From positions 372,001-436,000 of the forward strand of contig NZ_JAUOEL010000002.1 of assembly GCF_030540765.1 (NCBI RefSeq): a stretch of DNA of 64,000 bases. Direction: 5' to 3'. Source of the DNA: Flavivirga jejuensis (GTDB lineage: Bacteria; Bacteroidota; Bacteroidia; Flavobacteriales; Flavobacteriaceae). The position numbers and the translations under genes are program-made. The notes under the pieces were generated by a model. That model ran no database searches. It was given only the letters and a program-made list of their open reading frames with translations, and was not told the DNA's origin. The number at the start of each line of letters is the position of its first letter. The stretch's first letter is position 1. Shown here piece after piece: positions 29,390-58,361 of this stretch.

Positions 29390-32300
29390 TTAATAATTGA
29401 TATATATCCATCCTCTTTTAGGAGCTATTCCCGATTCGTTTAAATTTATGATATACAGATAGGCCCCAACAGGCAATTTTTTAATGCTATTGCTGGTTTT
29501 ATTGGAGACCCCATTCCAGTCATTTCGATAACCATTGGCTTCATACACTGGTTCTCCCCATTGGTTGAATACCTGAACGGTATTGCTTGGATAATCCGCT
29601 ATGTTTTCTACCACCCAAGTATCCCCGATGCCATCTCCGTTAGGGGAGAAACCACCTGGTGCTACAACCTCGGTACCTCTAGCTGTTATCGTAACTATAG
29701 CTGTTCCTGTTGCTGGGTCCCCTGCAGTATTGATTACCGTAAGTGTTACGGCTACATTGCCCAGTTCTGAGAAGGTCATAATATCCAAGAACATGCTGTC
29801 AATACCGCCACAAGCATCAAAAGAGCCATTGTCTATCTCTTGAGCAGAAATGGTCGCTTGCCCATTGGCATCTAATGCTACGGTAATATCTTGAGTTACC
29901 ACCGTTGGCCCTACAACATCTTCTACGGTTACCTGGGCTGTTGCCGTATCTGAGTTATTATTTTCGTCTGTAACAGTAAGCGTAATGGTTACAGGCGTGC
30001 CCACATCGGCACAGCTAAAATCTGTTCTGTCTAAACTTAAAGTAACATTGTTACAGCCAGCTCCGGAACCATTATCGATATCATCAGCGGTAATAGATGC
30101 AAATCCATTAGCATCTAACTCCACAGTAATGTCCTGGGCAACGGCGAAGACCATACAGGCCCCGCCCTCCGTTACATTGACCGTCCACTCCTGTTCGGTG
30201 GTGGTGTCCCCCGCGGTCACCGTGTAGTTTACCGTATTGGTAAAGTTCTGGGCAACACCGCTTTCCGGATCGATGCCAGAGCCATCGGGAATGGTGATCG
30301 TGGGCACAAGTCCGTCCAGGTCTGTGCCATAGGGCATTATGATATTTATGGTATGGGCAACATAGTCGATCTCCGAATCCATAATCTGCCCGTTAAGGGT
30401 GAAGGAAAGGATATCCGTTGGTCTGACCACCGTTACCGTAAGGGCCGCACTGGCCACATTGCCAAGGGCATCTCTCACGTACAGGGTCTCTGTATTGTCC
30501 CCCAAATGGTCAAGGGTATACTCCTTGGTCGTTACAATACTTTCGGCTTCAAAAGCTTCAAAACTGTATTCCAGCTCTCCTTCTTCGCTGCAGTTGTCCA
30601 CGGCGCTATAGTCCAGATCATCCAAGTTGAGCGTGCCCGTGCCCCCTTCCAGGTATACGGTGTGATCGGTCACGGTGAGCTCCGGGGCCAGGTCGTCCCC
30701 CAGGGCATCTCCTTCAAACGTCCAACTATAGGTATCAATCAGCACTTGTCTGTGGGCATCCCCCTCACAGTCATATATCAAATTTTCCGCGCCCAGCGTA
30801 ATGTCCGTGGGGGTATTGCTTGCATCGGCCCATCCTTCCAAGGTGGCCCCATAGTTCGTTGCCGACATCCCGCTCAAGTCCAACATCAACTCCATATTGG
30901 TCACCTGGCCTATGTCCCAACTGCCCAGATCTTGGTCAAAGGCTGTGGCATTGTAGAACATGCCGGACATGTCCGTTACATTGCCCATCCTTTCCGCCCA
31001 ATCGCTCAGATCCTGATTGAAGATCGTACGTATATTATCATTGGGTCCGGCGATATTAAATATTTCAGTGCCACTAACTAGAACTAATGTCGCATTGGCA
31101 AACATGCCCTTCATGGTGGTGACCTTGCTGACATCCCAGTTACTGATGTCCCGGTTAAAGGCACTGGCTCCCTGAAACATAAAATACATGCTTTGGACGT
31201 TCCCCACGTTCCAATCGCTGATGTCCCCATTAAAGGACGGGGTATTGTGGAACATGAAACGCATTGTTTCCACATTGCCTGTCTTCCACTTGTCCATGTT
31301 CTCCCCTGTAAAGAACAACGCATTCTGGAACATGCCCCTCATGTTGGTGACTCTGCCCACATCCCAATCACCAATGTCCGTATTGAACTTAATGGCTCCA
31401 GCGAACATAAAAATCATTTGTTTCACTTCGGCCGTCTTTTCCGCCCAGTCGCCGATGCCGCCACCTGTAAAGGCACTCGCACCATCGAACATGGCCCCCA
31501 TATCGGTAACGTTGCTTACGTCCCAATCGCCGATGTAGTCAGGGTTGAAATTAGTGGCCCCATAAAACATGTGGGACATACTGTTGACATTGCTCATATC
31601 CCAGCTGTTGAAATCGGTCTCTGTCCCGGTGAGTGATTGAGCCCTATTGAACATGGAACTCATATCGGTGACATTTGCCAAATTGGGGGCATCCTTGGCC
31701 GTTACGTTCATCTTGGAGCACCCTTTAAAGGCATTCGCCATGCTTTCCCATTCTATAAAGCCCCACTGCTCTACGGTACGTATTTTCTCTATGTTTGCAT
31801 CATTTGCGTTGTTAAAATAAATGGCTGGAAAATCGCCACTAATGGTAACGGTATAGGTGCCTGCACTCTGATAAGTATGGGTGGCGGCGGCATTTTCAGT
31901 GGTGCTGTTGCCATCTCCCCAATCTACGGTATAGTTGTAAGTATAACTACCATCAATAGGTATGATAATCTCTAAACCTGTTGTTTCATCAACCTCCCAA
32001 GTAGTAATGAAAGAGCCTTGTGGCAGGGTAGTATAATCTTCAGTTTCTACAAAATTAGAAGTTTCACCATCTAACTCAAAACCCACCAATGTACCGTTAT
32101 GATTATTCCCTGACGCATCCACTACCTGAGTTATTAAGGTGTTATCTCCACCAGCTACACCTTCGTCAAAAGGATAATAAGCCAATAAGTTACCAAAGTT
32201 GTTTTCGCTACCATCTAATTTTGAGATCATCTGCCCTCGAATCTCATTTTGAGTTTTTGCATAGTTCCAAACTCTTAACTCATCCATGGCACCTGGAAAA

Positions 32301-32866
32301 TAATGCTGATAGGCGCCACTAAAAATTTTAAATGCACCTATTGTAAAGTAATCGGTCACAAAATCGCTAGTATCTAAACCCTTTACGCTATATGCCTCAA
32401 CTCCATCAACATATAAAAATATATTATTATCGGTTGAGTCATCACCAGGATATGCTTTCCTAACAAAGGCAACATGATGCCATGTATCATTATTCATGGT
32501 CGTGTTCGCTGGAGCATGATGATCTGTCCAACCTTGAACTGGATCCCATTCTGCGTATAGAAGTCGTCCTTTTTCAATATTAAACTCATATGAATATTTA
32601 TCTGCATCACCAGCCGCATCATTAGCCCAACTTGCTATAGCTAACCTACCACCTAATTCTGGGAATTTCACCCATACCTCTAAGGTAAATTCATTATTTC
32701 CATTAGGTAAAGAAAAATGGTCTCCTATTATATAAGAAAAATGGTCTCCTATTATATATGGGACTTGATTAAAATGTAAAGCGTTGTCGTTTTGAGCTAC
32801 AACAGATATACATACTAAGGCTAAGAGAAGTATGTATAATTTCTTTAAATAGTTCTTTTGTTTCAT
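29390..32866 (-). CDS. T9SS type B surface protein: LamG, BspA-like repeats, Ig-like domains
   Basis: A 1158-aa protein. It has a signal peptide ending SVVAQ, then LamG (residues about 25-235, LRVWNYAKTQNEIRGQM). A PKD-like segment follows (about 290-360, YTVDWGDGNSTTENA). Next are BspA/DUF285 repeats (about 375-690, xxFNxDISDWNVGNVxSMxxMF), then HYR/Ig-like domains (about 710-1060). A type B sorting domain ends it (APGGFSPNGDGIGDTWVVEN, VQVFNQWGEPVYE). The adjacent PorP/SprF gene is its expected partner. Residues about 362-912 are encoded by DNA of clearly higher GC than both flanks, so the gene is a recombination mosaic. Confidence 0.92.
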   Translation of the reverse strand: MKQKNYLKKLYILLLALVCISVVAQNDNALHFNQVPYIIGDHFSYIIGDHFSLPNGNNEFTLEVWVKFPELGGRLAIASWANDAAGDADKYSYEFNIEKGRLLYAEWDPVQGWTDHHAPANTTMNNDTWHHVAFVRKAYPGDDSTDNNIFLYVDGVEAYSVKGLDTSDFVTDYFTIGAFKIFSGAYQHYFPGAMDELRVWNYAKTQNEIRGQMISKLDGSENNFGNLLAYYPFDEGVAGGDNTLITQVVDASGNNHNGTLVGFELDGETSNFVETEDYTTLPQGSFITTWEVDETTGLEIIIPIDGSYTYNYTVDWGDGNSTTENAAATHTYQSAGTYTVTISGDFPAIYFNNANDANIEKIRTVEQWGFIEWESMANAFKGCSKMNVTAKDAPNLANVTDMSSMFNRAQSLTGTETDFNSWDMSNVNSMSHMFYGATNFNPDYIGDWDVSNVTDMGAMFDGASAFTGGGIGDWAEKTAEVKQMIFMFAGAIKFNTDIGDWDVGRVTNMRGMFQNALFFTGENMDKWKTGNVETMRFMFHNTPSFNGDISDWNVGNVQSMYFMFQGASAFNRDISNWDVSKVTTMKGMFANATLVLVSGTEIFNIAGPNDNIRTIFNQDLSDWAERMGNVTDMSGMFYNATAFDQDLGSWDIGQVTNMELMLDLSGMSATNYGATLEGWADASNTPTDITLGAENLIYDCEGDAHRQVLIDTYSWTFEGDALGDDLAPELTVTDHTVYLEGGTGTLNLDDLDYSAVDNCSEEGELEYSFEAFEAESIVTTKEYTLDHLGDNTETLYVRDALGNVASAALTVTVVRPTDILSFTLNGQIMDSEIDYVAHTINIIMPYGTDLDGLVPTITIPDGSGIDPESGVAQNFTNTVNYTVTAGDTTTEQEWTVNVTEGGACMVFAVAQDITVELDANGFASITADDIDNGSGAGCNNVTLSLDRTDFSCADVGTPVTITLTVTDENNNSDTATAQVTVEDVVGPTVVTQDITVALDANGQATISAQEIDNGSFDACGGIDSMFLDIMTFSELGNVAVTLTVINTAGDPATGTAIVTITARGTEVVAPGGFSPNGDGIGDTWVVENIADYPSNTVQVFNQWGEPVYEANGYRNDWNGVSNKTSNSIKKLPVGAYLYIINLNESGIAPKRGWIYINY
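32711..32758. repeat. 24-bp perfect tandem duplication near the start of the LamG gene
   Basis: Two copies of a 24-bp unit beginning AGAAAAATGGTCTCC duplicate the peptide SYIIGDHF in frame just after the signal peptide. Confidence 0.9.
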
Positions 32867-33754: not shown

Positions 33755-34000
33755 TTAAATTGGTTTTTCTGGAAAAAAGTCTTTTATAGAACAATCAAAT
33801 ATTTTGGCAATTTCATTTAGAATGGAAATATTGTATTTTGCTTTTTTTGAAGGGGCTTCAATATGGGCTATATATGAACTGTTTTTACCTAATTTGTTTG
33901 ATAGTTCCTCTTGAGTAATATTACGAGCTTCCCTCTCTTCTCTAACTTGGAAAATTACATATTTCTCTATTTCTAATAAGTTATCTTTCGACATATACAA
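33755..34000 (-). CDS. XRE-family helix-turn-helix regulator
   Basis: An 81-aa protein, almost entirely one XRE/Cro-C1 HTH (REERNITQEELSNKLGKN-type segment EARNITQEELSNKLGKNSSY, then IAHIEAPSKKAKYNISILNE). It is divergent from the structured RNA and sigma genes to its right. It stands in the same position as the 108-aa protein at 56221 relative to the second module, so it may repress that promoter (inference). Confidence 0.88.
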   Translation of the reverse strand: MYMSKDNLLEIEKYVIFQVREEREARNITQEELSNKLGKNSSYIAHIEAPSKKAKYNISILNEIAKIFDCSIKDFFPEKPI

Positions 34001-34097
34001 ATTCAGTCATTTTTTTCAAACTTATCAATGGACTATATACCATTATTTATTTTAATTTTATATATTTGAGCAAGAATTACATTAATAATGTAATTTT

Positions 34098-34277
34098 GCG
34101 ATTCTTCAAATCAAAATATTGAAGCATTCGCTTTGAATTTCGTCTTAGAAAACTGGTAATTTTAAAGGAACGAAATGATAAGTAATATGCTCACGTCTAT
34201 CTATGGGCGTGGGCTCACTTATTGTTCCTCGGTATACCAGTACCTCTAAGGCAGTAAGCTGAGTTCCACGCCTTTTT
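34098..34277 (+). ncRNA. structured leader RNA with attenuator-like fold, copy 1
   Basis: It lies 131 bp upstream of the HCKLG-protein and sigma genes, on their strand. Elements in order: hairpin GCGA...TTCGC (34098-34131); conserved box TAGAAAACTGGTAATTTT (34146-34163); long central hairpin closed by GGAAC/GTTCC with tip stem GCTCACG/CGTGGGC (34167-34228); box GGTATACCAGTACC (34231-34244), which can pair ACCAGT with ACTGGT; and CCACGCC followed by TTTTT (34266-34277). GGCGTGG of the central hairpin can alternatively pair with this last CCACGCC, giving a terminator-type hairpin. The copy at 55953-56126 has compensatory changes in several of these stems. I cannot assign it to a known family. 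Confidence 0.75.
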
Positions 34278-34407
34278 GTTTCCACTCATTAAGGCCTTAA
34301 TGGAGTGTTATCTCATTTTTAAGGAAACTTAAACGCTGTAAAATATTATAAAACAAGCATTTATAACTTTAAATAGTTATATGCCATTTTTTATTTAAAG
34401 TGGACTT

Positions 34408-34824
34408 GTGATGAGCAATCACAAGGATAAAGGAAAATCTAAAAAAACCGAATCCATGGAAAAAAACAATGTTAATGATTCTCGCGAAATTTTGATTTTA
34501 ACGCACAATGCCCTTTCAAATTCCCTTACGCTAATAATTAATCAAACATCCCTTAAAGAAAACGTAAAAAAACATTGTAAACTGGGCTTGAAAATATTTG
34601 GAATTCTTTTAGCAGATTTAAAATACCATACGGGTACTCATTTATTAATGGAGAAAGAATTTGATCTATTCTTTGCTCGCTTTCCTGCCAAATACCATAA
34701 CGAAAAAAGAGACAACAGAAAATGGATTTGTGTTTATACTGTAGCGAAACATATAGAATCTTGTATTAAAGCTAATGCGATTGTAAACACCCCAGAGAAT
34801 AAACCCGAAAACACCTTAATTTAA
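34408..34824 (+). CDS. small protein of unknown family, HCKLGLK motif, paired with sigma factor
   Basis: A 138-aa soluble, mostly helical protein. It is homologous to the 110-aa product at 55445-55777 through VKxHCKLGLKxxGI, LLxxKxFDxFFxxFP and a C-terminal KANxxVN. A polar 25-residue N-terminal extension is unique to this copy. It ends 4 bp before the sigma gene, so the two are co-transcribed. A possible role is regulation of that sigma factor, but there is no membrane segment or anti-sigma zinc motif, so this is only inference. Confidence 0.7.
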   Translation: MMSNHKDKGKSKKTESMEKNNVNDSREILILTHNALSNSLTLIINQTSLKENVKKHCKLGLKIFGILLADLKYHTGTHLLMEKEFDLFFARFPAKYHNEKRDNRKWICVYTVAKHIESCIKANAIVNTPENKPENTLI

Positions 34825-34828
34825 AATT

Positions 34829-35356
34829 ATGAGCGAGAAGAAAAAGGAGTTTAATAATAAGAGTTATAAACAGTTTTTCGAGAGTTTATATCCACAATTA
34901 TGTGTGTTTGGGTACAAGTACCTCAATGATTTGGATACCTCAAAAGACTTCGTTCAGGAGGTTTTTGTTAAAGTATGGGAAGATAACATTGCTTTTAAAA
35001 ATGAAAACCATGCCATAGGTTTTTTTTATTTAGCTGTTAAAAATAAATGTATCAATTATTTAAAAAGTAAACAGTATAAAGTAACAGAACGTTATGAGCT
35101 TACAAATCTGGAAGCTTTTGAAACAGAAGATTCTTATATGCCTGAAGCCGTCGTTATAGAAACCACAGCTGTTATAGATAAAGCCATTAGTAAGCTGCCA
35201 GAAAAGGCGGCTCAGGTTATTAGATTGAGTATCGAAGACTATACCAATAATGAGATAGCAGATGAGTTATCTATATCCATCAATACGGTCAAGGATCATA
35301 AAAAAGTAGCTTATCGAAAATTAAGAGACTTTCTTGGCTTTTTAAATATGAGTTAA
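34829..35356 (+). CDS. ECF-type RNA polymerase sigma factor
   Basis: A 175-aa protein with region 2 (LYPQLCVFGYKYLNDLDTSK, FVQEVFVKVWED) and region 4 (LPEKAAQVIRLSIEDYTNNE, IADELSISINTVKDHKKVAY). It is about 75% identical by eye to the sigma factor at 54897-55424. It is second in a two-gene unit after the HCKLG protein and the structured RNA. The usual flavobacterial partner genes (FecR, TonB receptor) are absent. Confidence 0.92.
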   Translation: MSEKKKEFNNKSYKQFFESLYPQLCVFGYKYLNDLDTSKDFVQEVFVKVWEDNIAFKNENHAIGFFYLAVKNKCINYLKSKQYKVTERYELTNLEAFETEDSYMPEAVVIETTAVIDKAISKLPEKAAQVIRLSIEDYTNNEIADELSISINTVKDHKKVAYRKLRDFLGFLNMS

Positions 35357-35829: not shown

Positions 35830-38800
35830 TTATTCTTTTATAATTTTTTTGGTTTGAATTTTCCCATCGGTGCTTTCTACTTTTACTATATACATTCCAG
35901 TTGGTAAACTACTGGCATCTATTTTGTTATTAAAAGAGCTCAATAATGCTTTCCCTAATAGGTTATAAACTTTGGCTTCTTTTAATTGAAAACCAGATGG
36001 TGTTACAATACTTAATGTATTTACCACGGGGTTGGGGCTTATGCGTATGGTTTCATTAAATAATAATTCATTATCAAGACTACTATCAATAACTGTAGCA
36101 ACATCAACATTTGTTTTAGTTTTGGTAGCTTTTCCTGTGCCACAATTGGTACTAAAACTTGCGGTAGCATCTATATTATTTGCCCAGTTGGCGTTGCTAT
36201 AAGCCACATTATCCACTTGTATACAGCTTAAATTGGGGTTGTCTGTGCCTATAAAATAATTCAAATTCGTATTATTACCATTGGCTACATTTAAGTATGT
36301 TAAATCATTACCATAACAATATAAACTTGTTAAAGCAGTGTTGTTTGATACATCCAAGCTTGTTAGATCATTATTATAACAATATAAAGTTGTTAAAGCT
36401 GTATTGGCAGAGACATCTAAACTTGTTAAAGCATTATTGTGACAGTGTAACTGTCTTAAAGCTGTATTGGCAGAGACATCTAAACTTGTTAAAGCATTAT
36501 TGTGACACAGTAAAAATATTAAAGCTGTATTGGCAGAGACATCTAAACTTGTTAAAGCAGTACTGTAACAATCTAACCTTGTTAAAGCTGTATTAGCAGA
36601 GACATCTAAACTTGTTAAAGCATTATTGTTACACAGTAAACTTTTTAAAGCTGTATTTGCAGAGACATCTAAACTTGTTAAAGCATTATTGTAACAAAAT
36701 AAATATTGTAAATATGTATTAGCAGAGACATCTAAACTTGTTAAAGCATTATTGTGACACAGTAAAAATGTTAAAGCTGTATTTGCAGAGACATCTAAAC
36801 TTGTTAAAGCATTATTGTCACAATATAACCTTGTTAAAGCTGTATTAGCAGAGACATCTAAACTTGTTAAAGAATTGCCACCGCAACTTAAAAATGTTAA
36901 AGCTGTATTGGCAGAGACATCTAAACTTGTTAAAGCATTATCGTAACAATATAAACTTGTTAAAGCTGTATTAGCAGAGACATCTAAACTTGTTAAATTA
37001 TTGCTATAACACTGTAATTCTTCAAGAGCCAAATTGCTGGCAACCTCTAAGCTGATTAAATTATTGTAATTGCAATATAAACGTGTAATATTAACAAAAG
37101 CCTCAATACCTGTTAGATCTGCTATGTTTTTAGATGAAACATCCATTGTTCCTGTAAAAGCGGCCGCTTCATTATAACTTATTTCTGTATCGTTATTGGG
37201 GTTTATGGCTGTGTTGGACAGCAAAGCGTTTTTAAAATTGACATCGGGGATGTACACTATAGGAGAACAATCGGTACTAAAACTTGCGGTGGTATCTATA
37301 TCATTTGCCCAGTTGGCGTTGCTATAGGTAACATCGTCCACTTGTATACAGCTTAAATTAGGGTTGTTTTCTGCGGTAAAAGTTATTAAATTAGTATTAT
37401 TGCCATTGGCAACGTTTAAACTTGTTAAAGCATTATTGGAACAATATAAACTTGTTAAAGCTGTATTTGCAGAGACATCTAAACTTGTTAAAGCATTATC
37501 GTAACATATTAACCTTGTTAAAGCTGTATTGGCAGAGACATCTAAACTTGTTAAATTATTGCTATTACACCGTAATTCTTCAAGAGCCAAATTGTTGGCA
37601 ACCTCTAAGCTGGTTAAATTATTGTAATTGCAATATAAACGTGTAATATTAACAAAAGCCTCAATACCTGTTAAATCTGCTATGTTATTAAATGAAACAT
37701 CCATTGTTCCTGTAAAAGCGACCGCTTCATTATAACTTATTTCTGTATCGTTATTGGTGTTTACGGCTGTGTTGGACAGCAAAGCGTTTTTAAAATTGAC
37801 ATCGGGGATGTACACTATAGGAGAACAATCGGTACTAAAACTTGCGGTGGTATCTATATCATTTGCCCAATTGGTGTTGCTATAGGTAACATCGTCCACT
37901 TGTATACAGCTTAAATTAGGGTTGTTTTCTGCGGTAAAAGTTATTAAATTAGTATTATTGCCATTGGCAACGTTTAAACTTGTTAAAGCATTATCGTCAC
38001 AATATAAACCTCTTAAAGCTGTATTGGCAGAGACATCTAAACTTGTTAAAGCATTATCGTCACAATATAACCTTGTTAAAGCTGTATTAGCAGAGACATC
38101 TAAACTTGTTAAAGCATTATTGTCACAATATAAAGTTGTTAAAGCTGTATTAGCAGAGACATCTAAACTTGTTAAAGCATTACCGTCACAATATAACCTT
38201 GTTAAAGCTGTATTAGCAGAGACATCTAAACTTGTTAAAGCATTATCGTAACAAAATAACCATGTTAAAGCTGTATTAGCAGAGACATCTAAACTTGTTA
38301 AAGCATTACCGTCACAATATAAATATATTAAAGCTGTATTAGCAGAGACATCTAAACTTGTTAAAGCATTACCGTCACAATATAAATCTCCTAAATATGT
38401 ATTAGCAGAGACATCTAAACTTGTTAAAGCATTATCGTAACAATATAACAATGTTAAAGCTGTATTAGCAGAGACATCTAAACTTGTTAAAGCATTATCG
38501 TCACAATATAAATATATTAAAGCTGTATTTTCAGATACATCTAAACTTGTTAAAGCATTGTCTCTACAATTTAAACCTGTAATATTAACAAAAGCCTCAA
38601 TACCTGTTAAATCTGCTATGTTATTAAATGAAACATCCATTGTTCCTGTAAAAGCGGCCGCTTCATTATAACTTATTTCTGTATCGTTATTGGTGTCTAC
38701 GGCTGTGTTGGACAGCAAAGCGTTTTTAAAATTGACATCGGGGATGTACACTATAGGAGAACAATCGGTACTAAAACTTGCGGTGGTATCTATATCATTT

Positions 38801-39885
38801 GCCCAATTGGTGTTGCTATAGGTAACATCGTCCACTTGTATACAGCTTAAATTAGGGTTGTTTTCTGCGGTAAAAGTTATTAAATTAGTATTATTGCCAT
38901 TGGCAACGTTTAAACTTGTTAAAGCATTATCGTCACAATATAAACCTCTTAAAGCTGTATTGGCAGAGACATCTAAACTTGTTAAATTATTGTTACCACA
39001 ATATAAACTTGTTAAAGCTGTATTAGCAGAGACATCTAAACTTGTTAAAGCATTAGAGTTACAACCTAATTCTGTTAAAGCTGTATTAGCAGAGACATCT
39101 AAACTTGTTAAAGCATTAGAGTTACAACCTAATTCTGTTAAAGCTGTATTAGCAGAGACATCTAAACTTGTTAAATCATTACCGTAACACTGTAAACTTA
39201 TTAAAGCTGTATTAGCAGAGACATCTAAACTTGTTAAATTATTAATCCAACAATCTAAACTTGTTAAAGCTGTATTAGCAGAGACATCTAAACTTGTTAA
39301 ATCATTACCGTAACACTGTAAACTTATTAAAGCTGTATTAGCAGAGACATCTAAACTTGTTAAAGGATTAATCCAACACTGTAAACTTATTAAAGCTGTA
39401 TTAGCAGAGACATCTAAACTTGTTAAAGCATTATTGGAACAATATAACCTTGTTAAAGCTGTATTAGCAGAGACATCTAAACTTGTTAAAGGATTATTGG
39501 AACAATATAACCTTGTTAAAGCTGTATTAGCAGAGACATCTAAACTTGTTAAAGCATTGTCTCTACAATATAAATGTGTAATATTAACAAAAGCCTCAAT
39601 ACCTGTTAGATCTGCTATGCCTTTACGTGAAACATCCATTGTTCCTGTAAAAGCGGCCGCTTCATTATAACTTATTTCAGTATCGTTATCGGTGTTTATG
39701 GTTGTGTTGGACAGCAAAGCGTTTTTAAAATTGACATCGGGAATGTTTACATAATTTGGACCTATAGCTTGTGCATTGGTGTGTGCAGCACTTACTATAA
39801 ATAGCAAAAATAACAAAGAGGCATTTTTAATGCCTTTTTTTAAGGTTTGCGCTGGAACCGCTCTGGGAGAATAATTTTTTTTCAT
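35830..39885 (-). CDS. T9SS-secreted leucine-rich-repeat surface protein
   Basis: A 1351-aa protein with a signal region to about residue 39 (FIVSAAHTNAQ). It is built from four cassettes. Each starts with an EF-hand-like/IAALTG-type unit (IPDVNFKNALLSNT, DTEISYNEAAAFTGTMDVS, IADLTGIEAFVNIT), followed by 3 to 13 repeats of 21 residues (TSLDVSANTALT-x-L-x-C-xx-NAL), and closes with NLSCIQVDDVTYSN...SFSTDCSP. The conserved L/C spacing indicates a beta-solenoid. The last 75 residues are a type A T9SS sorting domain (ISPNPVVNTLSI to KIQTKKIIKE). The role is probably adhesion or ligand binding at the surface. Confidence 0.93.
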   Translation of the reverse strand: MKKNYSPRAVPAQTLKKGIKNASLLFLLFIVSAAHTNAQAIGPNYVNIPDVNFKNALLSNTTINTDNDTEISYNEAAAFTGTMDVSRKGIADLTGIEAFVNITHLYCRDNALTSLDVSANTALTRLYCSNNPLTSLDVSANTALTRLYCSNNALTSLDVSANTALISLQCWINPLTSLDVSANTALISLQCYGNDLTSLDVSANTALTSLDCWINNLTSLDVSANTALISLQCYGNDLTSLDVSANTALTELGCNSNALTSLDVSANTALTELGCNSNALTSLDVSANTALTSLYCGNNNLTSLDVSANTALRGLYCDDNALTSLNVANGNNTNLITFTAENNPNLSCIQVDDVTYSNTNWANDIDTTASFSTDCSPIVYIPDVNFKNALLSNTAVDTNNDTEISYNEAAAFTGTMDVSFNNIADLTGIEAFVNITGLNCRDNALTSLDVSENTALIYLYCDDNALTSLDVSANTALTLLYCYDNALTSLDVSANTYLGDLYCDGNALTSLDVSANTALIYLYCDGNALTSLDVSANTALTWLFCYDNALTSLDVSANTALTRLYCDGNALTSLDVSANTALTTLYCDNNALTSLDVSANTALTRLYCDDNALTSLDVSANTALRGLYCDDNALTSLNVANGNNTNLITFTAENNPNLSCIQVDDVTYSNTNWANDIDTTASFSTDCSPIVYIPDVNFKNALLSNTAVNTNNDTEISYNEAVAFTGTMDVSFNNIADLTGIEAFVNITRLYCNYNNLTSLEVANNLALEELRCNSNNLTSLDVSANTALTRLICYDNALTSLDVSANTALTSLYCSNNALTSLNVANGNNTNLITFTAENNPNLSCIQVDDVTYSNANWANDIDTTASFSTDCSPIVYIPDVNFKNALLSNTAINPNNDTEISYNEAAAFTGTMDVSSKNIADLTGIEAFVNITRLYCNYNNLISLEVASNLALEELQCYSNNLTSLDVSANTALTSLYCYDNALTSLDVSANTALTFLSCGGNSLTSLDVSANTALTRLYCDNNALTSLDVSANTALTFLLCHNNALTSLDVSANTYLQYLFCYNNALTSLDVSANTALKSLLCNNNALTSLDVSANTALTRLDCYSTALTSLDVSANTALIFLLCHNNALTSLDVSANTALRQLHCHNNALTSLDVSANTALTTLYCYNNDLTSLDVSNNTALTSLYCYGNDLTYLNVANGNNTNLNYFIGTDNPNLSCIQVDNVAYSNANWANNIDATASFSTNCGTGKATKTKTNVDVATVIDSSLDNELLFNETIRISPNPVVNTLSIVTPSGFQLKEAKVYNLLGKALLSSFNNKIDASSLPTGMYIVKVESTDGKIQTKKIIKE
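36340..39580. repeat. 63-bp tandem repeat arrays inside the LRR gene
   Basis: The core GCAGAGACATCTAAACTTGT recurs every 63 bp dozens of times, in four blocks of different length. The variable positions cluster in a short window that encodes the residues around the conserved Cys. Larger units of about 1 kb (the EF-like cassette plus its array) are also duplicated almost exactly. Confidence 0.93.
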
Positions 39886-47053: not shown

Positions 47054-48178
47054 ATGTCAAAAACAAATATTCCAGAAAAGATAAAGGTACAGCTTTGGAC
47101 ATTGGCTGGAGGTAGATGTGAATATGCTGGTTGTAACAAAGCACTCTGGAGAGACGAGTTGACAATGGCCAAAATGAATAAAGCATATATAGCCCATATT
47201 GTTGCGGATAGTGCAGAAGGACCAAGAGGAAATTATCTTCGTTCTCCATTACTTGCAAAATCATTCAGCAATCTTATGCTGATGTGTGATGAACATCATC
47301 GATTAATTGATAAGGAAGATGTTCCTGGTCATACTGAAATCCTGCTTATTCAGATGAAAAAAGAACATGAAAAAAGAATTGAACTTTTGACATCTTTAAT
47401 TCCACAAAACAAGACACATCTTGTTTTTTATGGTTCTAATATTGGCAACCAAGACTCTGCTTTATGTTTTAAATCTTCAGCACAAGCTGTGTTACCAAAT
47501 AAATTCCCGAATGACAATTATGGTATTGAACTAGGAATAACAAATAGCATTATAAAAGATAAAGAAGATTTATTTTGGTCGCTGGAAACTGAAAATTTAA
47601 TAAGACAATTCCAAGAAAAGGTTGAACCCATTAAAACTCACAATGAAATTAAATCTTTTTCCCTTTTTGGTTTAGCTCCTCAACCATTGTTAATTAAGTT
47701 AGGAACACTTTTTACTGATTTATATGATGTAGATGTTTTTCAAAAACACAGAGAACCTTCTACTTGGAAATGGCAAAGTGAAAATAGTTTCACTGGGTTC
47801 AAATTAATTGAACCCGAAAACTATGATGGAATTCCTGTTCTAAATATTTCTTTAAGTGCAACTATTACAAATGACAGAATTGAAAAACTTTATAGTTCTA
47901 AAATTAGTATTTGGACAATTACGCACAATAAACCAGATAATGATTTCTTGAAATCTAAAACCATCTTATCTGAGTTTAGAAAAATTTGCAGACAATTTTT
48001 TGACATAGCAAAAGCTAAACATGGACAAGATAATGTGCTAAATGTTTTTCCTGCAATGCCAATTGCTGCATCAATTGAATTTGGTCGAATATGGATGCCT
48101 AAGGCAGACATGAACTTAATTATTTATGACCAAAATAAGGATAGAGATGGATTTTATAAAACAATCGAAATAAAATAA
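47054..48178 (+). CDS. cap5: CBASS effector: HNH endonuclease fused to SAVED domain (Cap5)
   Basis: A 374-aa protein. Residues 12-90 form an HNH nuclease: zinc Cys pair C22/C27, IAHIVADS with His48, then FSNLMLMCDEHHRLID with Asn73, Cys78 and His81/82. Residues about 150-374 match the SAVED sensor (LGLAPQPLLIKLGTLF-type segment LFGLAPQPLLIKLGTLFTD; FPAMPIAASIEFGRIWMPKA). In known Cap5 proteins, binding of a cyclic nucleotide by SAVED drives oligomerisation and unspecific degradation of double-stranded DNA, killing the infected cell. The CD-NTase gene starts 7 bp downstream, which confirms the assignment. Confidence 0.93.
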   Translation: MSKTNIPEKIKVQLWTLAGGRCEYAGCNKALWRDELTMAKMNKAYIAHIVADSAEGPRGNYLRSPLLAKSFSNLMLMCDEHHRLIDKEDVPGHTEILLIQMKKEHEKRIELLTSLIPQNKTHLVFYGSNIGNQDSALCFKSSAQAVLPNKFPNDNYGIELGITNSIIKDKEDLFWSLETENLIRQFQEKVEPIKTHNEIKSFSLFGLAPQPLLIKLGTLFTDLYDVDVFQKHREPSTWKWQSENSFTGFKLIEPENYDGIPVLNISLSATITNDRIEKLYSSKISIWTITHNKPDNDFLKSKTILSEFRKICRQFFDIAKAKHGQDNVLNVFPAMPIAASIEFGRIWMPKADMNLIIYDQNKDRDGFYKTIEIK

Positions 48179-48185
48179 TTACACT

Positions 48186-49445
48186 ATGCTCACAATAGAA
48201 CAAAAGGAACAATTCAATGAGGTATTAGAAACATTAGGAGGAAATCTTGATATATCAGAAACTCAATTTAATGCCGCTGTTACAAGCTATGAATCTGTTG
48301 GAACTTGGCTTTCAAAGGATGACTCAGAATTAGCACCATACAACCCAACAATAAAACCGCAAGGGTCGTTTATACTAGGCACTATTATAAAACCTATATC
48401 AGTTGACGATGATTTGGATATTGATTTGGTTTGTGAACTTAGCAAGAAGAATGATTCTTGGACGCAATTTGACCTGAAAAAAATTGTAGGAGACCAGCTT
48501 AAAGCTAATAAAAGAATAGATGACTTGTTAGATGAAGAAGGCAGACGATGTTGGACACTAAAATACCGCCAAGAATCAGATAATTTAAAGGAGAAATATC
48601 ATATGGATATTTTACCTGCTATCACAAGCGAAGGATATAATGTAATCTTGAATGAATCTTATGCAAAAGCTTTTAGTGCAGAAGAAGTCGATAAATTAGG
48701 TATTAGTATCACTGATAATAAAAGTGATAACTATTATAGTTCGAATACTCCTGAAGATTGGCATAAAAGTAATCCTTTTGGATATGCTCAATGGTTTTTT
48801 GCAAAAGCCTCTTTACAGCAAACTACAAAGCTGTTTTCTCTAAATGAATCAGTAAAGCCTGTACCTACTTTTCAAAAAGAGAGATTTCCTTTGCAGAGGG
48901 TTGTTCAAATTTTGAAAAGACATAGAGATATGTTTTACAAAGGTAAAAGCGAAGAAGAAAGAAAGAACAAACCAATTTCAATTATTATAACAACTTTAGC
49001 ATCTCACGCGTACAGAGGCGAAGTAAACATTATGGATGCACTTGGTAATGTAATTAGTACAATGTATGAGAATATCAAGGACTACAATCCAAATACTGGA
49101 GAGAAAGAAAAATGGGTTGAAAATCCTGTTAACAGTTTGGAAAACTTCGCTGATAAATGGAAGGAATTTCCAGAAAGACAAACTCATTTTTATAATTGGT
49201 TGAATGAAATAAAAAAAGATCTTAGCAACATAACTTCACAAGCAGAGAGAGGTTTAAGTTTTATTAATGAAGCAATGAACAGACCTTTTGGGGAGGAATT
49301 GATGACAAAGACTTTTAGCAATATAAAGAATAAGGGATTACTTTCATCCACGTCTACTTTTTTATCTGCTAATGTTAATAAAAGCATTGATACAGAATTG
49401 CCAAAAAAACTTCCCAAAACTAAAAGAGAAGGGTTTCAAAAATGA
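48186..49445 (+). CDS. CBASS cGAS/DncV-like nucleotidyltransferase (CD-NTase)
   Basis: A 419-aa protein. The nucleotidyltransferase motif reads PQGSFILGTIIKPI and then DDDLDIDLVCEL (GSF, DxD). The third acidic residue is in YHMDILPAI. The LDEEGRRCWTLKYR segment between them is usual for this clade. It makes a cyclic di- or trinucleotide upon infection; the exact product cannot be read from sequence. It overlaps cap2 by 4 bp (ATGA), and Cap2 is expected to conjugate its C-terminus, here ending KTKREGFQK, to cellular targets. Confidence 0.93.
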   Translation: MLTIEQKEQFNEVLETLGGNLDISETQFNAAVTSYESVGTWLSKDDSELAPYNPTIKPQGSFILGTIIKPISVDDDLDIDLVCELSKKNDSWTQFDLKKIVGDQLKANKRIDDLLDEEGRRCWTLKYRQESDNLKEKYHMDILPAITSEGYNVILNESYAKAFSAEEVDKLGISITDNKSDNYYSSNTPEDWHKSNPFGYAQWFFAKASLQQTTKLFSLNESVKPVPTFQKERFPLQRVVQILKRHRDMFYKGKSEEERKNKPISIIITTLASHAYRGEVNIMDALGNVISTMYENIKDYNPNTGEKEKWVENPVNSLENFADKWKEFPERQTHFYNWLNEIKKDLSNITSQAERGLSFINEAMNRPFGEELMTKTFSNIKNKGLLSSTSTFLSANVNKSIDTELPKKLPKTKREGFQK

Positions 49446-51238
49446 AATGGTGGGAAGATAAAAAACACATTTTTGCTAGGGAAAAATTGAGACTAAATAG
49501 TGAATGGAAATCAAATGATTTTGAATTCTTCATTCAAAAGGAATTACTTTGGCTATCTGGCACTTTATTCCTTCCAGCAAAAGTTGGCGGTTTTATCAAC
49601 TTTCCATTTGAATTAAAATATCCTCAAAATTATCCTTTTTCAGTTCCTTATATTTATCCAAAAGGTCGGGAAAAGGATTGGGTTGGAAACCATCAATTTA
49701 TTAGTACTGCTTTTTGCTTAGATATTAGGGACAAAACGTGGAATTCTTCACTATCAGCTGTTGATATTATTAAGAGTCTTGAAAAACTATTATTAGCAGC
49801 TTTAGATATGATTGAAAACAAATCAGGTAAACTCGATGTCTATGAAGAAACTGAACCAACAAAATTAGATAATACCAAAAGAACTATCCAATGCATAGTT
49901 CCATATCCTTTATCATTTCCTAATGGTTCTAATATTGGGAGTTTTACCTATCACAGTTCAATAGCTGATAATAGGGTAATTATAAGTCCGATATTACCAA
50001 AAGAAAAACCAGATAGTGATTATATTAAAAAGGCTTTTGAAAATGAGTACTTAAAAATATGGGGATTCAACCTCTTGTTTTCAAAAAATAAAGGAGTATG
50101 GATTAGAGTATCCCTAAATCACCTAAATTCAATTGTGTTTAAAGACAACCTAAATATATTCATTAAGTATTTAAGCAGTGAGAAAATTATATCGGTAGAG
50201 GAAATACAAAATCACATAGAGAAGGACAAGGTTAAACAAATTGTTTTTTTTACAAATAATAAAGCCGAATTGTATGCAGAAATCAATTATAAAGAAGGGG
50301 AAATTAAATATTTTGGATGCTATAACCCAGATTTAACTAAACTAAACTCAAGGGTACCTGATTCTCAAAAAGCTTCACTAATTAATACAAAAAAGGTAGC
50401 TATTATTGGATGCGGTTCTGCAGGGAGTGTTATTGCAGAGGAATTTGTGAAATCAGGTGTTTCAGAGTTGATACTAATTGATGATGAATATTTAACTGTA
50501 GAAAATGTAATAAGACATACATGTGGTATAGAAGATATTGGCTTAAAAAAAACTCAAGCTTTAAAGAATAAATTATATCAGATTAACCCTTTCATTAAGA
50601 TTGATTGTGTCAATACTAACATAATTACTATTCCAAGCCATGTTAGTGAGAAAATAAAGGGCGTTGATATAATTGTAAATGCAACAGCTGATATAGAAGA
50701 GGTCATCAATGAGTTTTGTTGGTTATATAAGATACCATCGCTTCATTCTAAAGTATATCCTATGGGTTACGGTGGGGAAATCCTAAGAATTATCCCCGAA
50801 ATAACTCCCTGTTTTGAATGTATGAATAATAAACTATCTAGGATATTAGAATCACAGGAAGGGTTTAACGATACACCTGACAGTAAGTTTATTAATTATA
50901 ACGAAACAGAAGAAGGGGAAATACTTCCAACACCTGCACTTAGTATTGATGCTAAATTTATCTCGCTTTTTACTGTTAAAATGGCTCTTGAGATTCTTCT
51001 TACTGATACCTTAGAGGTATTTAAATCAAAACCTAACATTATTTTATGGGGGAATGAAAAGAAATGGATTTTCAAAGAAGAATTTGCATGTGTTAAAGTA
51101 GATACATCCAAATTCATATCATATTCAAACTGCTTTGTTTGTTTTGGTAACAAGCAAATTGAGTCAGAACTTGGTTTAACTGAACAGGAAGTTTTAAATA
51201 TCACAAATGATACAATTATAAAGAATGACGAAGATTAA
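49442..51238 (+). CDS. cap2: CBASS Cap2, E2-E1 ubiquitin-conjugation-like fusion
   Basis: A 598-aa protein. The E2-like N-terminal domain (residues about 1-140) has FELKYPQNYPFSVPYIYP and the catalytic-type Cys92 in TAFCLDIRDKTW. The E1-like domain (from about 315) has the nucleotide loop VAIIGCGSAGSVIAEEF (Gly323), then LILIDDEYLTVENVIRH, ADIEEVINEFCW and CFECMN. In type II CBASS, Cap2 attaches the CD-NTase by its C-terminus to other molecules and so primes it. The gene overlaps both neighbours (4 bp upstream, 14 bp downstream). Confidence 0.94.
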   Translation: MKWWEDKKHIFAREKLRLNSEWKSNDFEFFIQKELLWLSGTLFLPAKVGGFINFPFELKYPQNYPFSVPYIYPKGREKDWVGNHQFISTAFCLDIRDKTWNSSLSAVDIIKSLEKLLLAALDMIENKSGKLDVYEETEPTKLDNTKRTIQCIVPYPLSFPNGSNIGSFTYHSSIADNRVIISPILPKEKPDSDYIKKAFENEYLKIWGFNLLFSKNKGVWIRVSLNHLNSIVFKDNLNIFIKYLSSEKIISVEEIQNHIEKDKVKQIVFFTNNKAELYAEINYKEGEIKYFGCYNPDLTKLNSRVPDSQKASLINTKKVAIIGCGSAGSVIAEEFVKSGVSELILIDDEYLTVENVIRHTCGIEDIGLKKTQALKNKLYQINPFIKIDCVNTNIITIPSHVSEKIKGVDIIVNATADIEEVINEFCWLYKIPSLHSKVYPMGYGGEILRIIPEITPCFECMNNKLSRILESQEGFNDTPDSKFINYNETEEGEILPTPALSIDAKFISLFTVKMALEILLTDTLEVFKSKPNIILWGNEKKWIFKEEFACVKVDTSKFISYSNCFVCFGNKQIESELGLTEQEVLNITNDTIIKNDED

Positions 51239-51701
51239 ATTTAAAGTTTCTCTTGAAGTTGAGGCTAAAATTGAGAGAGCTCTTAGAAAATCTGGTGATT
51301 TTGAAACGGGAGGAATACTAATTGGTAACAAAATCGAAGATAATAGTTTCGAAATAGTGGATGTTTCAGTTTCAAATGAAGATAACAAATACTCCATAGC
51401 TTCTTTTATTAGAGGAGTTAAGAAATCTGATATGCTTTTAAGGAAACACTATAAAAGAAAATCAGGTTATTATATTGGAGAATGGCATTCTCATCCCAAA
51501 TTTAGTCTATCACCAAGTCGTCAAGATATTGCAACTATGTTTGGTATTCTTGCTGATGATAATTATGGAGTCTCGTTTAGCATTCTCATAATTACCAAAA
51601 TGAATAATGATAAACTAGACTATCAGGGGTATTTTTTTCATGAAAATTTGAATGAAATAATTGTGCTAGAACAAAGCCCAGCCCCTAACAATGTGTCATA
51701 A
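51225..51701 (+). CDS. cap3: CBASS Cap3, JAMM-type isopeptidase
   Basis: A 158-aa protein with a complete JAMM site: glutamate in FETGGILIGN and the motif EWHSHPKFSLSPSRQD (HxH-x7-S-xx-D). Cap3 removes CD-NTase from its conjugates and so counters Cap2. The start overlaps cap2 by 14 bp, so translation is coupled. It is the last gene of the operon; a cassette-type spacer follows. Confidence 0.94.
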   Translation: MTKIKFKVSLEVEAKIERALRKSGDFETGGILIGNKIEDNSFEIVDVSVSNEDNKYSIASFIRGVKKSDMLLRKHYKRKSGYYIGEWHSHPKFSLSPSRQDIATMFGILADDNYGVSFSILIITKMNNDKLDYQGYFFHENLNEIIVLEQSPAPNNVS

Positions 51702-54896: not shown

Positions 54897-55424
54897 TTAT
54901 CTCGTTTTTAAAAAGTCAAGAAGCTTTCTTAATTTGTGATAGGCTACTTTTTTATGATCTTTGACCGTATTGATAGATATGGATAATTGCTCTGCGATCT
55001 CATTATTTGTAAAATCTTTTATACTCAATCTAATAACTTGAGCGGCTTTTTCTGGTAGTCCATTGATGGCGTTTTCTATAACAACGGTGGTTTCTAGAAC
55101 TACGGCTTCAGACATATAGAATTCTTCAGTGTCATAAGCCTCTAACTTTGCAAGCTCATAACACTCTGTAACCCTATAGGTCTTACTTTTTAAATAATTG
55201 AGGCATTTATTTTTTACAGCTTTATAAAAAAATCCAGTAGCATGGGTTTCATTTTTAAAAACGGTTTTAGATTCCCATACTTTAATAAAAACATCCTGAA
55301 CAACGTCTTTTGAGGTATCTAAATCATTGAGATACTTGTATGCAAACACACAAAGTTGCGGATACAAGCTTTCAAAATAGCTTTTATACTCCCTATGAGT
55401 GAAGTCTTTTCTATCCCCGCTCAT
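54897..55424 (-). CDS. ECF-type RNA polymerase sigma factor
   Basis: A 175-aa protein with region 2 (LYPQLCVFAYKYLNDLDTSK, VVQDVFIKVWESK) and region 4 (LPEKAAQVIRLSIKDFTNNE, IAEQLSISINTVKDHKKVAY). It is a close paralogue of the gene at 34829, at the same relative position after an HCKLG-type gene and the structured RNA. It may drive island genes, but no target promoter can be assigned. Confidence 0.92.
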   Translation of the reverse strand: MSGDRKDFTHREYKSYFESLYPQLCVFAYKYLNDLDTSKDVVQDVFIKVWESKTVFKNETHATGFFYKAVKNKCLNYLKSKTYRVTECYELAKLEAYDTEEFYMSEAVVLETTVVIENAINGLPEKAAQVIRLSIKDFTNNEIAEQLSISINTVKDHKKVAYHKLRKLLDFLKTR

Positions 55425-55444: not shown

Positions 55445-55777
55445 CTACCAACTAGCATTTACAACCTCATTTGCTTTAGCGCACAACACTAGATTGGTAA
55501 AAATCATATCAACAGGAATCAATTCCCTATTGTTAATATAATCCTTAGGAAAAAAGGAAAAGAACCCATCAAATTTTTTATTAAATAAAAGGGACATTCC
55601 CGAATTACAAGATAGACCAGTGTATATAATACCTATAACCTTTAAGCCCAATTTGCAATGTACTTTAACTTCATTAGTTAGGTTAGATCTGTTAAGCAAC
55701 TCGATTAAGAGGGGTTCAGCGACATAATATAGACGAGTCAAGCTATATGGAACAGTTGGAGTTTTAGAATTAGACAT
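55445..55777 (-). CDS. small HCKLGLK-motif protein paired with sigma factor
   Basis: A 110-aa protein homologous to 34408-34824: VKVHCKLGLKVIGIIYTGLS, LLFNKKFDGFFSFFPKDY, CAKANEVVN. It precedes the sigma gene by 20 bp and follows the RNA. The N-terminal extension of the other copy is absent, so the conserved core is about 90 residues. Function unknown. Confidence 0.7.
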   Translation of the reverse strand: MSNSKTPTVPYSLTRLYYVAEPLLIELLNRSNLTNEVKVHCKLGLKVIGIIYTGLSCNSGMSLLFNKKFDGFFSFFPKDYINNRELIPVDMIFTNLVLCAKANEVVNASW

Positions 55778-56220: not shown

Positions 56221-56547
56221 ATGTCAAAGAGTAAAAATAAAAAGAGTCATAAACAAGATGAATCTGGAAAAGTTTTTTTGTTGGATAAATTTGTTTGCAA
56301 CTATATTACAACTGAATGGCTTTCCGACGGAGCTTCCAATCTCTCTCACAGCAAAAAATACGGTGTACATCGACACATTTTAACCAAAATAAAAAAGGAA
56401 GATGGGTATAGAATCCCTTTATCTTCGCTTGCAATAATGTGCTTCTACAAGAAAATAGCTCTATCCGATTTTTTCAAAATGATTGAAAATAAATATGGTT
56501 CAAAAATTAATGATGATTTTGTAGTTAATACAAAAAAAGAAGAATAA
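56221..56547 (+). CDS. small helix-turn-helix-type protein, divergent from the sigma module
   Basis: A 108-aa protein. After a charged N-terminus, residues about 22-90 (LLDKFVCNYITTEWLSDGAS, then YGVHRHILTKIKKEDGYRIP) resemble a HTH of the XRE type found in flavobacterial regulators. It takes the same divergent place as the XRE gene at 33755. It may sense or repress the module promoter (inference). Confidence 0.6.
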   Translation: MSKSKNKKSHKQDESGKVFLLDKFVCNYITTEWLSDGASNLSHSKKYGVHRHILTKIKKEDGYRIPLSSLAIMCFYKKIALSDFFKMIENKYGSKINDDFVVNTKKEE

Positions 56548-56670: not shown

Positions 56671-57939
56671 TTAAAAATTGACCTTTTTGGCTTGCTCTTG
56701 AGATTGTTGCTTCTTGCTTTCAAATCGTATAAGTAGATTTTGTATATCCTCACTTATCTTGGTCTCTACTACCCTAGCATAAATTTGGGTTGTTGCGAGT
56801 TTGGTATGTCCCAATAGCTTGGATACCGTTTCTATAGGTACGCCATTGGAAAGCATGACGGTTGTTGCAAAGGTATGTCTGGCAACATGAAAAGAAATGT
56901 TCTTGTGGATACCACAAGCTTTCGCAATTTCTTTTAAATAAGTATTGGTCTTTTGATTGGAGCTTATGGGTAATACATTATTGGTTGTAAAATCTTTTTC
57001 TTGGATAACTTTATACTTTTCAAGTATTGCCCATGCTTTGGGGAGTATTGGTACTTTTACCTGTTCGTCCGTTTTTTCTCGTTTGGTATATATCCAATTA
57101 TTGCCGTCTATGCCCTTAACAATATTGCTTTCTGTAAGTTCTTTAACATCTACATAGGATAGCCCAGTATAACATGAAAACACAAAACAATCTTTGATTT
57201 TTTGTAGGCGGTCGCTTGTAAACTCTGTAGCTTCTAATAGGTGCAATTCTCTTTCTGTTAGGTATTCCCTGTCGTATTTGTTATATTTTAATTGAAATTG
57301 GCTAAATGGGTTTTTGTTCATCCATTCTAGTTTAATGGCTAGGTTTACCATTTTTTTAAAGCGCTCTAAATGTTTCATCACGCCATTATTGGATAATATC
57401 AATTGCTTTTTAGAATTTTTGTAGGTTCTCAGGTAGTGTTCAAAATCTGTGATGAATCTAAAATTTAATTGTTTCAAGTAAATATCCTTTACTCTTTTTT
57501 TCTTTTGTAAAAACTTCTGTAAGTATCTTTCTGTGGTATAATAATTCTTCATCGTTCCTGCTTTGAGAACGTGGATCATATTTCCATTGTGGTAAGTGAT
57601 TAATTCTTTTAAGGTCTTGCTGTTGTCATCTTCTCCCAAGTATCGGGACTTAATGGCGTCCGAGGATATGATTTTATCTTCTTCTAGGAGCTGTTTATGA
57701 CATTGGAGCAGTTTGTTATACACCTCATCTAAATAGGCGTTTAAAACTCTTATTTTTTCGGTATTACCCCTACCCTTTGTTTTTGTACTGTCCCATTCAT
57801 TTTGGGCAATACTTCTTTTTAAACTCATTTCTGCTCGTTTACCTTTTACAGTAATACGAACATAGATAGAAAGCTGATTGGGATTGCTTCTAGATTTTCT
57901 TGTAAAGAAAATAACAGCAAAAGTGCTTTTTGTTTTCAT
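56671..57939 (-). CDS. tyrosine recombinase (integrase) of the tRNA-Pro island
   Basis: A 422-aa protein of normal length. Arm-binding domain about 10-85 (LSIYVRITVKGKRAEMSLKR), core-binding domain about 110-215, catalytic domain about 225-405 with HVARHTFATTV (HxxR), LLGHTKLATTQIYARV (His and nucleophilic Tyr). Where most recombinases have the first catalytic Arg (TGLRY), this one reads CYTGLSYVDVKEL, as in IntDOT-like integrases of Bacteroidota that use Ser there. Its 5' end points to the tRNA-Pro, 226 bp away, as usual for tRNA-targeting islands. Confidence 0.94.
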   Translation of the reverse strand: MKTKSTFAVIFFTRKSRSNPNQLSIYVRITVKGKRAEMSLKRSIAQNEWDSTKTKGRGNTEKIRVLNAYLDEVYNKLLQCHKQLLEEDKIISSDAIKSRYLGEDDNSKTLKELITYHNGNMIHVLKAGTMKNYYTTERYLQKFLQKKKRVKDIYLKQLNFRFITDFEHYLRTYKNSKKQLILSNNGVMKHLERFKKMVNLAIKLEWMNKNPFSQFQLKYNKYDREYLTERELHLLEATEFTSDRLQKIKDCFVFSCYTGLSYVDVKELTESNIVKGIDGNNWIYTKREKTDEQVKVPILPKAWAILEKYKVIQEKDFTTNNVLPISSNQKTNTYLKEIAKACGIHKNISFHVARHTFATTVMLSNGVPIETVSKLLGHTKLATTQIYARVVETKISEDIQNLLIRFESKKQQSQEQAKKVNF

Positions 57940-58165: not shown

Positions 58166-58240
58166 TCGGGGTGGCAGGATTCGAACCTGCGACCTCCGCG
58201 TCCCAAACGCGGCGCGATAACCGGGCTACGCTACACCCCG
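58166..58240 (-). tRNA. tRNA-Pro (TGG)
   Basis: The minus strand folds as a complete cloverleaf: acceptor CGGGGTG/CACCCCG, anticodon loop TTTGGGA with anticodon TGG, T-arm GGTTCGAATCC. CCA is not encoded. Its 3' end is the island attachment site and is regenerated intact here. Confidence 0.96.
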
Positions 58241-58272
58241 AATTGATTATCTAAATTTCTAAAAGAAATTTG

Positions 58273-58361
58273 CGGAGAGACAGGGATTCGAACCCTGGGT
58301 AAGTGTTTCCACCTACGACGATTTAGCAAACCGCTCCTTTCGGCCACTCAGGCACCTCTCC
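58273..58361 (-). tRNA. tRNA-Ser (GCT)
   Basis: An 89-nt class II tRNA with long variable arm. Acceptor GGAGAGG/TCTCTCC with discriminator G; anticodon GCT in TTTGCTAAA; T-arm GGTTCGAATCC. Confidence 0.95.

Follow-up and report, generated by a model that had tools for sequence, protein, structure and literature searches.

What kind of element precedes the HCKLG-protein and sigma-factor unit of Flavivirga jejuensis, and how might it act on that unit? In the 64,000-nt stretch of contig NZ_JAUOEL010000002.1 analysed here (the window), the first-pass annotation had pointed to two copies of an RNA element sharing two boxes. Both copies and both boxes are found in the sequence, the second copy lying on the minus strand. 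The features concerned are as follows (the arm-swap test is explained below).

33755 to 34000, minus strand: divergent gene of a small HTH protein (Xre type; PF01381 HTH_3, E 1.2e-08, above cut-off)
34091 to 34098, plus strand: TAnnTTTG, directly adjoining the element; -7 box recognised by the main Bacteroidetes sigma factor
34098 to ~34283, plus strand: element copy 1, beginning at the G of the TAnnTTTG box and ending with the U-run
34098 to 34131, plus strand: 5' hairpin H0 (GCGATTCTTC/GAAGCATTCGC), arm-swap z -5.9
34137-34142 with 34171-34176, plus strand: helix ALT (ATTTCG/CGAAAT), both-side changes at 5/6 pairs, arm-swap z -7.2
34142 to 34252, plus strand: long-hairpin fold overall, with helices P1, box helix, P2, P4 and P3
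34142-34149/34245-34252, plus strand: P1, arm-swap z -26.5
34152-34158/34235-34241, plus strand: box helix
34166-34171/34224-34229, plus strand: P2, arm-swap z -20.3
34177-34183/34217-34223, plus strand: P4
34189-34195/34208-34214, plus strand: P3
34207 to 34222, plus strand: switch strand GCGTGGGCTCACTTAT, 16 nt, matched by dCas12f guides of relatives, with a G before it at 34206
34255 to 34277, plus strand: terminator 3' arm, made up of the 3' box TAAGCTGAGTTCCACGCC (34255-34272) and the U-run (34273-34277)
34283 to 34320, plus strand: second hairpin (CACTCATTAAGGCCTTAATGGAGTG, 34283-34307) followed by TTATCTCATTTTT (from alignment and fold)
34411 to 34824, plus strand: HCKLG-protein gene, all-helical model (AlphaFold2 mean pLDDT 81.5)
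34829 to 35356, plus strand: ECF sigma factor gene, Sig70_bacteroi1 type (TIGR02985, E 3.4e-36, 124.9 bits, just under the curated cut-off of 126.4)
54897 to 55424, minus strand: ECF sigma factor gene of copy 2 (TIGR02985, E 2.8e-37, 128.5 bits, above cut-off)
55445 to 55777, minus strand: HCKLG-protein gene of copy 2
56126 to 55947, minus strand: element copy 2, beginning at the G of its TAnnTTTG box (covariance model R1, 174.1 bits)
56022 to 56007, minus strand: switch strand of copy 2, with a G before it at 56023; U-run at 55958-55953
56221 to 56547, plus strand: divergent gene of copy 2, weakly HTH-like (PF13443 HTH_26, E 0.07, below cut-off; in HTH-labelled clusters)

At the start of the element, TAnnTTTG stands at exactly that spot in 66 of 77 elements, compared with 53 of 22407 upstream background positions, and is named as a consensus in PMC9723704. 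Part of H0 may lie 5' of the transcript start. At the other end, the second hairpin and TTATCTCATTTTT are kept in most Flavivirga copies, as judged from the alignment.

Next, the copies and their spread were determined. A covariance model (R1) was built on 13 copies, ten from the own genome and three from F. amylovorans and F. aquimarina. Besides the two in the window there are others: with R1, the own genome (6.0 Mb, 33 contigs) scores 10 strong and 2 weak copies in all, most of which share the window layout. Variants occur among them, with the sigma gene truncated or missing in some, no HCKLG gene at the copy on contig C33 and a HCKLG fragment only at that on C31. The covariance-model search of Flavobacteriaceae proposed at first pass returned matches in 73/397 genomes and 60/237 genera. 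In a phylum-wide sample, which overlaps the Flavobacteriaceae set, 47/385 genomes and 24/167 genera have matches, other families and classes included. The family scan scored at most six candidates per genome under strict filters, so copy numbers are lower bounds.

The element had been described as a structured RNA outside the known families, and it does not belong to any Rfam family at the gathering cut-off. Rfam 15 returned two tRNAs alone across the whole window and nothing at the elements, and among 12 loci of relatives it returned tRNA and rteR only, both outside the element. Sub-threshold scores at elements were 23.4 bits for PyrG_leader (cut-off 65), 17.6 for AfaR (100) and 13.9 for Fungi_U3 (95). 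A 6S-type RNA was considered and rejected, with no 6S match at the element up to E 10 and a conserved terminator fold. Among the papers listed by searches of open-access literature, none describes the RNA family and none deals with dCas12f-sigma, a coverage too narrow to show absence from print.

How the element might work depends on one strand. For the switch strand GGCGTGGGCTCnCTTAT there are two possible sets of partners. Pairing with the upstream arms ATAAG and GCTCACG closes the long hairpin; the alternative is a box further downstream, TAAG plus GAGTTCCACGCC, which ends in a U-run. Compensatory changes keep both pairings. Those reported earlier between the two copies (GGAAC/GTTCC versus GCACC/GGTGC, and GCTCACG/CGTGGGC versus GCTCGCG/CGTGAGC) are seen as stated, and so is the 3' box, TTCCACGCC in copy 1 and TTTCACGCT in copy 2, with the U-run behind it. 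The alternative stem proposed at first pass also exists but is longer than claimed. Since the switch strand uses its CTTA to pair with the TAAG before the box, the terminator of copy 1 is formed by 34205-34225 with 34251-34273. The fold is better than in shuffled sequence, with a z of -4.80 in copy 1 and -4.81 in copy 2 (reached by 0/200 shuffles each). RNAalifold chose the terminator for the 13 copies, and the two window copies folded alone gave the long hairpin.

Covariation was then counted in alignment A4, comprising 74 elements (the 94 R1 matches minus the 20 lowest-scoring); no counts were taken from alignment A3, which was fitted to one fold. In the hairpin fold, 90.8% of cells are paired and 21 of 35 pairs show changes on both sides, with 27-43% paired in slid controls. 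The terminator together with helix ALT (ATCTCG/CGAGAT) is paired in 90.3% of cells, with both-side changes at 17 of 27 pairs and slid controls at 38-59%; for the terminator helix taken separately, the values are 90.0% across 21 pairs and both-side changes at 12. P2 is poorly aligned and reaches 68.4%. For each fold, none of 500 shuffles equalled the observed value in four of five measures, the covariation score among them, while the fifth, a count of further pair types, was equalled by 13 and 5 of the 500. At one terminator pair (columns 140/175), 24/74 elements carry changes on both sides; in the hairpin, column 140 faces a partner that is almost invariably G.

In the arm-swap test, which covered 70/74 A4 elements (four failed segmentation), the arms of an element pair better on average with each other than with foreign arms for all seven arm pairs, two of which overlap (0/5000 shuffles each). 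Mean values for own and foreign arms are -8.7 and -1.6 kcal/mol for P1, -8.7 and -3.1 for P2, and -22.2 and -20.9 for the terminator. Together with the covariation in 74 elements, this bears out the claim of two mutually exclusive folds, one a terminator, 5' of a regulatory unit; a significant Rfam hit and a lack of covariation in a wider alignment, both named beforehand as grounds for abandoning it, were not seen. The clearest support comes from whole-strand replacement, because shuffle and slide controls leave shared ancestry in. In 6 of 20 other-family loci, the whole strand is swapped to GCGTCC / GGACGC / GCGTCC and the three-way competition is retained. A word of at least 4 nt is common to the three strands in 71/74 main, 17/20 lower-scoring and 19/20 other-family elements, with region-shuffled means of 26.5, 7.8 and 8.3 (maximum 15 in the last group).

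As expected of an attenuator, the alignments thus point to two exclusive folds, each with compensatory change, under controls that leave shared ancestry in. A predicted terminator stem with a U-run likewise lies 5' of a codirectional gene, some copies (e.g. L112 and L132) having no U-run directly 3' of the box. The predicted energies of hairpin and terminator are close in copy 1 (-53.9 vs -51.7 kcal/mol). In copy 2 they are -59.7 and -43.4, the hairpin being 16 kcal/mol lower, and the hairpin fold is predicted to be favoured in 59/74 elements, with a median of 2.8 kcal/mol. A simple equilibrium switch is therefore not given.

The genes around the element indicate what it may control. For the HCKLG protein, neither Pfam nor NCBIfam gave a family at cut-off, a PDB fold search gave nothing at E<=0.001, and PADLOC did not hit that of copy 1. 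The copy 1 protein is 100% identical to a F. aquimarina protein, and the nearest named relatives found are Flavivirga species. A role of the HCKLG/sigma unit as the defining partner of the element, as taken at first pass, is not supported: HCKLG was found in 4/397 family genomes from two genera. Within 6 kb downstream, a codirectional SusC is found at 46/94 matches, compared with 13/94 for dCas12f and 14/94 for HCKLG; SusD is present in 41/94 and a sigma gene in 25/94. Outside the window the element lies mostly 5' of SusCD or sigma(RpoE)-dCas12f operons. TonB-plug receptor, SusD and FecR were each confirmed by Pfam on one representative. The element also occurs 5' of classical sigma and FecR units, at L087 (FecR by Pfam) and at L111 and L235 (by cluster or eye).

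On the upstream side, 72 of the first 77 matches have a divergent ORF of 65-180 aa close by, the set also used for the promoter-box and upstream-G counts. This ORF falls in HTH-labelled clusters in 71/77; outside the window these labels were given mostly by clustering, and of five divergent-gene cluster representatives one passes a Pfam HTH cut-off, three fall below it and one is without a match. Among lower-scoring elements, such an ORF is found at 3/17. The diverged form at L139-L153 and L155, also lower-scoring, lies directly 5' of varied single genes, several times between tandem genes, mostly without a divergent gene and with no promoter box by eye; this outlier group was assessed mostly by eye. 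In several of its members, a downstream GGAACTG can pair with the box CAGTTCC, giving a possible third fold.

One point missed by the first-pass annotation is that dCas12f guide RNAs of relatives match the switch strand. A sigma gene and the gene of a ~365-aa protein come after the element in 13 loci. The latter matches PDB 9n9c, 'Nuclease-deactivated Cas12f' (E 1.2e-194), and the adjoining sigma factor matches chain C, 'RpoE', of PDB 9n9q (E 7.2e-114). Full-length dCas12f is present in 16 family genomes, all of which carry the element, compared with 73/397 overall (P 4e-13). Five further genomes hold dCas12f fragments only, two of them with the element (G021 and G266), and 57/73 element-bearing genomes have no full-length dCas12f match. 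Shortly 3' of dCas12f, a scaffold running from GAGGGTGCTTGTACACCC to CATATACAAC is followed by the guide. The element itself was considered as the dCas12f guide RNA (scaffold plus guide), an idea that was rejected once separate scaffolds with guides had been found 3' of dCas12f.

In five genomes (G125, G094, G162, G134 and G322), one guide is GCGTGGGCTCTCTTAT, i.e. the switch strand. By script, 9/16 dCas12f genomes have a guide that matches the switch strand of its own genome at no fewer than 13 of 15 positions, compared with 3 of 5440 control windows. G257 is a tenth genome, through a second guide RNA with a degenerate scaffold that the filter of the script had removed. In the other six, the best guide reaches 7 to 11 of 15. 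The base 5' of the guide match is G in 77/77 elements, in agreement with the 5'-G motif beside the target that is a feature of dCas12f-sigma systems. With a guide matching the switch strand and the 5'-G in 10/16 genomes, the element appears to be a natural dCas12f-sigma target in such relatives. In G144, one guide and one diverged element both begin with GCGTGACAT (by eye), which suggests that guide and element may co-vary in trans. Several dCas12f genomes hold additional non-matching guides. Guide RNAs can also stand in tandem sets of 2 to 4, the guides differing within a set (L082:6161-6290, L131:6256-6850 and L175:6111-6510); several of these lack a match to the element, so that there may be further dCas12f targets.

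The guide does not explain why the switch strand is conserved, because genomes without dCas12f conserve the strand at least as well. Against the consensus guide, mean mismatches are 0.65 for 37 elements from genomes without dCas12f and 0.35 for the 17 of Flavivirga, compared with 1.04 for 23 elements from genomes with a dCas12f match, fragments included. The window's genome gave no dCas12f match with a query that matched 21/397 family genomes, a search run without a same-genome positive control. The guide pattern was found there at 11 sites, namely the 10 elements and a weak site without scaffold (C30:472), none being a matching guide. For the outlier group, a search of 12 genomes for its guide with up to three mismatches gave 12 sites, of which seven are elements and five lie elsewhere without a scaffold by eye.

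Based on these findings, the element is most likely an attenuator of the downstream operon. The fuller reading, in which a leader RNA carries a two-state terminator that dCas12f-sigma would bypass in dCas12f-bearing relatives, is the one favoured here as reasonably probable. The TAnnTTTG box would be where transcription starts, controlled by the divergent HTH regulator, and the balance between the folds would set whether polymerase stops near 34277 or reads through into the HCKLG and sigma genes. In dCas12f-sigma systems, initiation reportedly takes place downstream of the R-loop. In relatives with dCas12f, dCas12f-sigma would bind the DNA of the element and initiate 3' of the 5' arm of the terminator. 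Because a start past the R-loop would omit this arm, the RNA-guided transcript could not form the terminator and the operon would be read despite it. Candidates for the trigger in Flavivirga are HCKLG, the HTH protein or an unknown RNA.

An alternative is that the terminated transcript of ~180 nt is itself the product, a trans-acting small RNA whose free 3' box would, for example, pair with the guide RNA or with mRNAs. That box is largely single-stranded in the hairpin fold and complementary to the guide sequence, and in Flavivirga it is followed by a second hairpin whose end is U-rich. In Flavobacterium psychrophilum, the structured sRNA Rfp18 acts on protease mRNAs (PMC9723704). The codirectional SusC within 6 kb in 46/94 matches and the sigma gene in 25 argue for a cis role instead, and the box tracks the core of its own element, 12/21 terminator pairs being changed on both sides, which makes a trans-acting product unlikely. 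A small-molecule riboswitch, with the hairpin fold as aptamer and a ligand setting the terminator, would account for a compact conserved fold and an alternative terminator. It is somewhat less probable still, as no large invariant unpaired pocket is visible by eye apart from AAAA and TTTT stretches, the downstream genes vary widely (SusCD, dCas12f, HCKLG and assorted other proteins) and one genome holds ten strong copies.

It might also be that the DNA site alone matters, as a guide-RNA target or a recombination site, with the RNA folds a by-product. In favour of this, dCas12f of relatives has the core as a natural target, and among the outlier copies some are placed between tandem genes, two of them beside tyrosine-recombinase-like ORFs (by eye). 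A bare DNA site would hardly come with a 5' promoter box and, in most copies, a 3' U-run, nor with competing strands that covary with many G-U pairs, and 57/73 element genomes have no full-length dCas12f match; of the explanations weighed, this is the most improbable.

The attenuator reading can be set beside known systems. RNA-guided transcription by dCas12f-sigmaE has reportedly been described by Hoffmann, Sternberg and colleagues. As in these systems (PDB 9n9c, 9n9m, 9n9o and 9n9q), the element operons of relatives encode the same two proteins, and the guide RNAs have a G beside the target; unlike in them, no dCas12f or matching guide was found in the window's genome. Transcription attenuators and riboswitches are a class with intrinsic terminators. 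The element shares with them two exclusive folds, one a U-run terminator, placed after a promoter box and ahead of a regulatory gene. It differs in that the switch strand is at the same time a target of guide RNAs in relatives, and no ligand or leader peptide was identified. With 6S RNA, of which 6S-Flavo is a named form, it has in common a long bulged hairpin of ~180 nt, whereas an alternative terminator that is conserved, a copy number of ten in a single genome and the lack of a 6S match set it apart. Structured RNAs of Bacteroidetes are named in PMC9723704 (Flavo-1) and PMC6414381 (Bacteroid-trp, an attenuator); unlike these, the element has no match to any Rfam family at gathering level.

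RNA-guided transcription by dCas12f-sigma is already known; for the RNA family, neither Rfam nor the literature searched gave a match. It would be a large family outside Rfam spanning Bacteroidota, in which strands compete for one partner and undergo full compensatory replacement. In addition, dCas12f-sigma systems gain a concrete set of natural targets, together with the prediction that a terminator is bypassed by RNA-guided initiation. A wider picture can be put forward tentatively, with somewhat more doubt than confidence. A phylum-wide, multi-copy, two-state terminator RNA might control outer-membrane uptake operons, and dCas12f-sigma might have adopted the switching strand as its guide, one guide activating every copy by starts just past the 5' arm of the terminator. 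In Flavivirga, HCKLG and its own sigma factor might take that place by a different mechanism.

Several observations were made on the surroundings of the copies. Between them lies a CBASS-type defence operon (47054-51701), with a SAVED-HNH effector, a cyclase, E1-E2 and JAB according to PADLOC. Copy 2 adjoins an ORF that is a tyrosine recombinase by eye (56671-57939, minus strand), with two tRNA genes next to it (58166-58361), which suggests an integration site. Near the orphan C33 element, L036:3190-6766 contains two near-identical copies of an ORF, one of them truncated, of phosphopantetheinyl-transferase type by eye. Copy 1 is flanked by two large surface-type proteins (29390-32866 and 35830-39885, both minus strand, by eye), the second of which has many near-identical repeats of leucine-rich type, also by eye.
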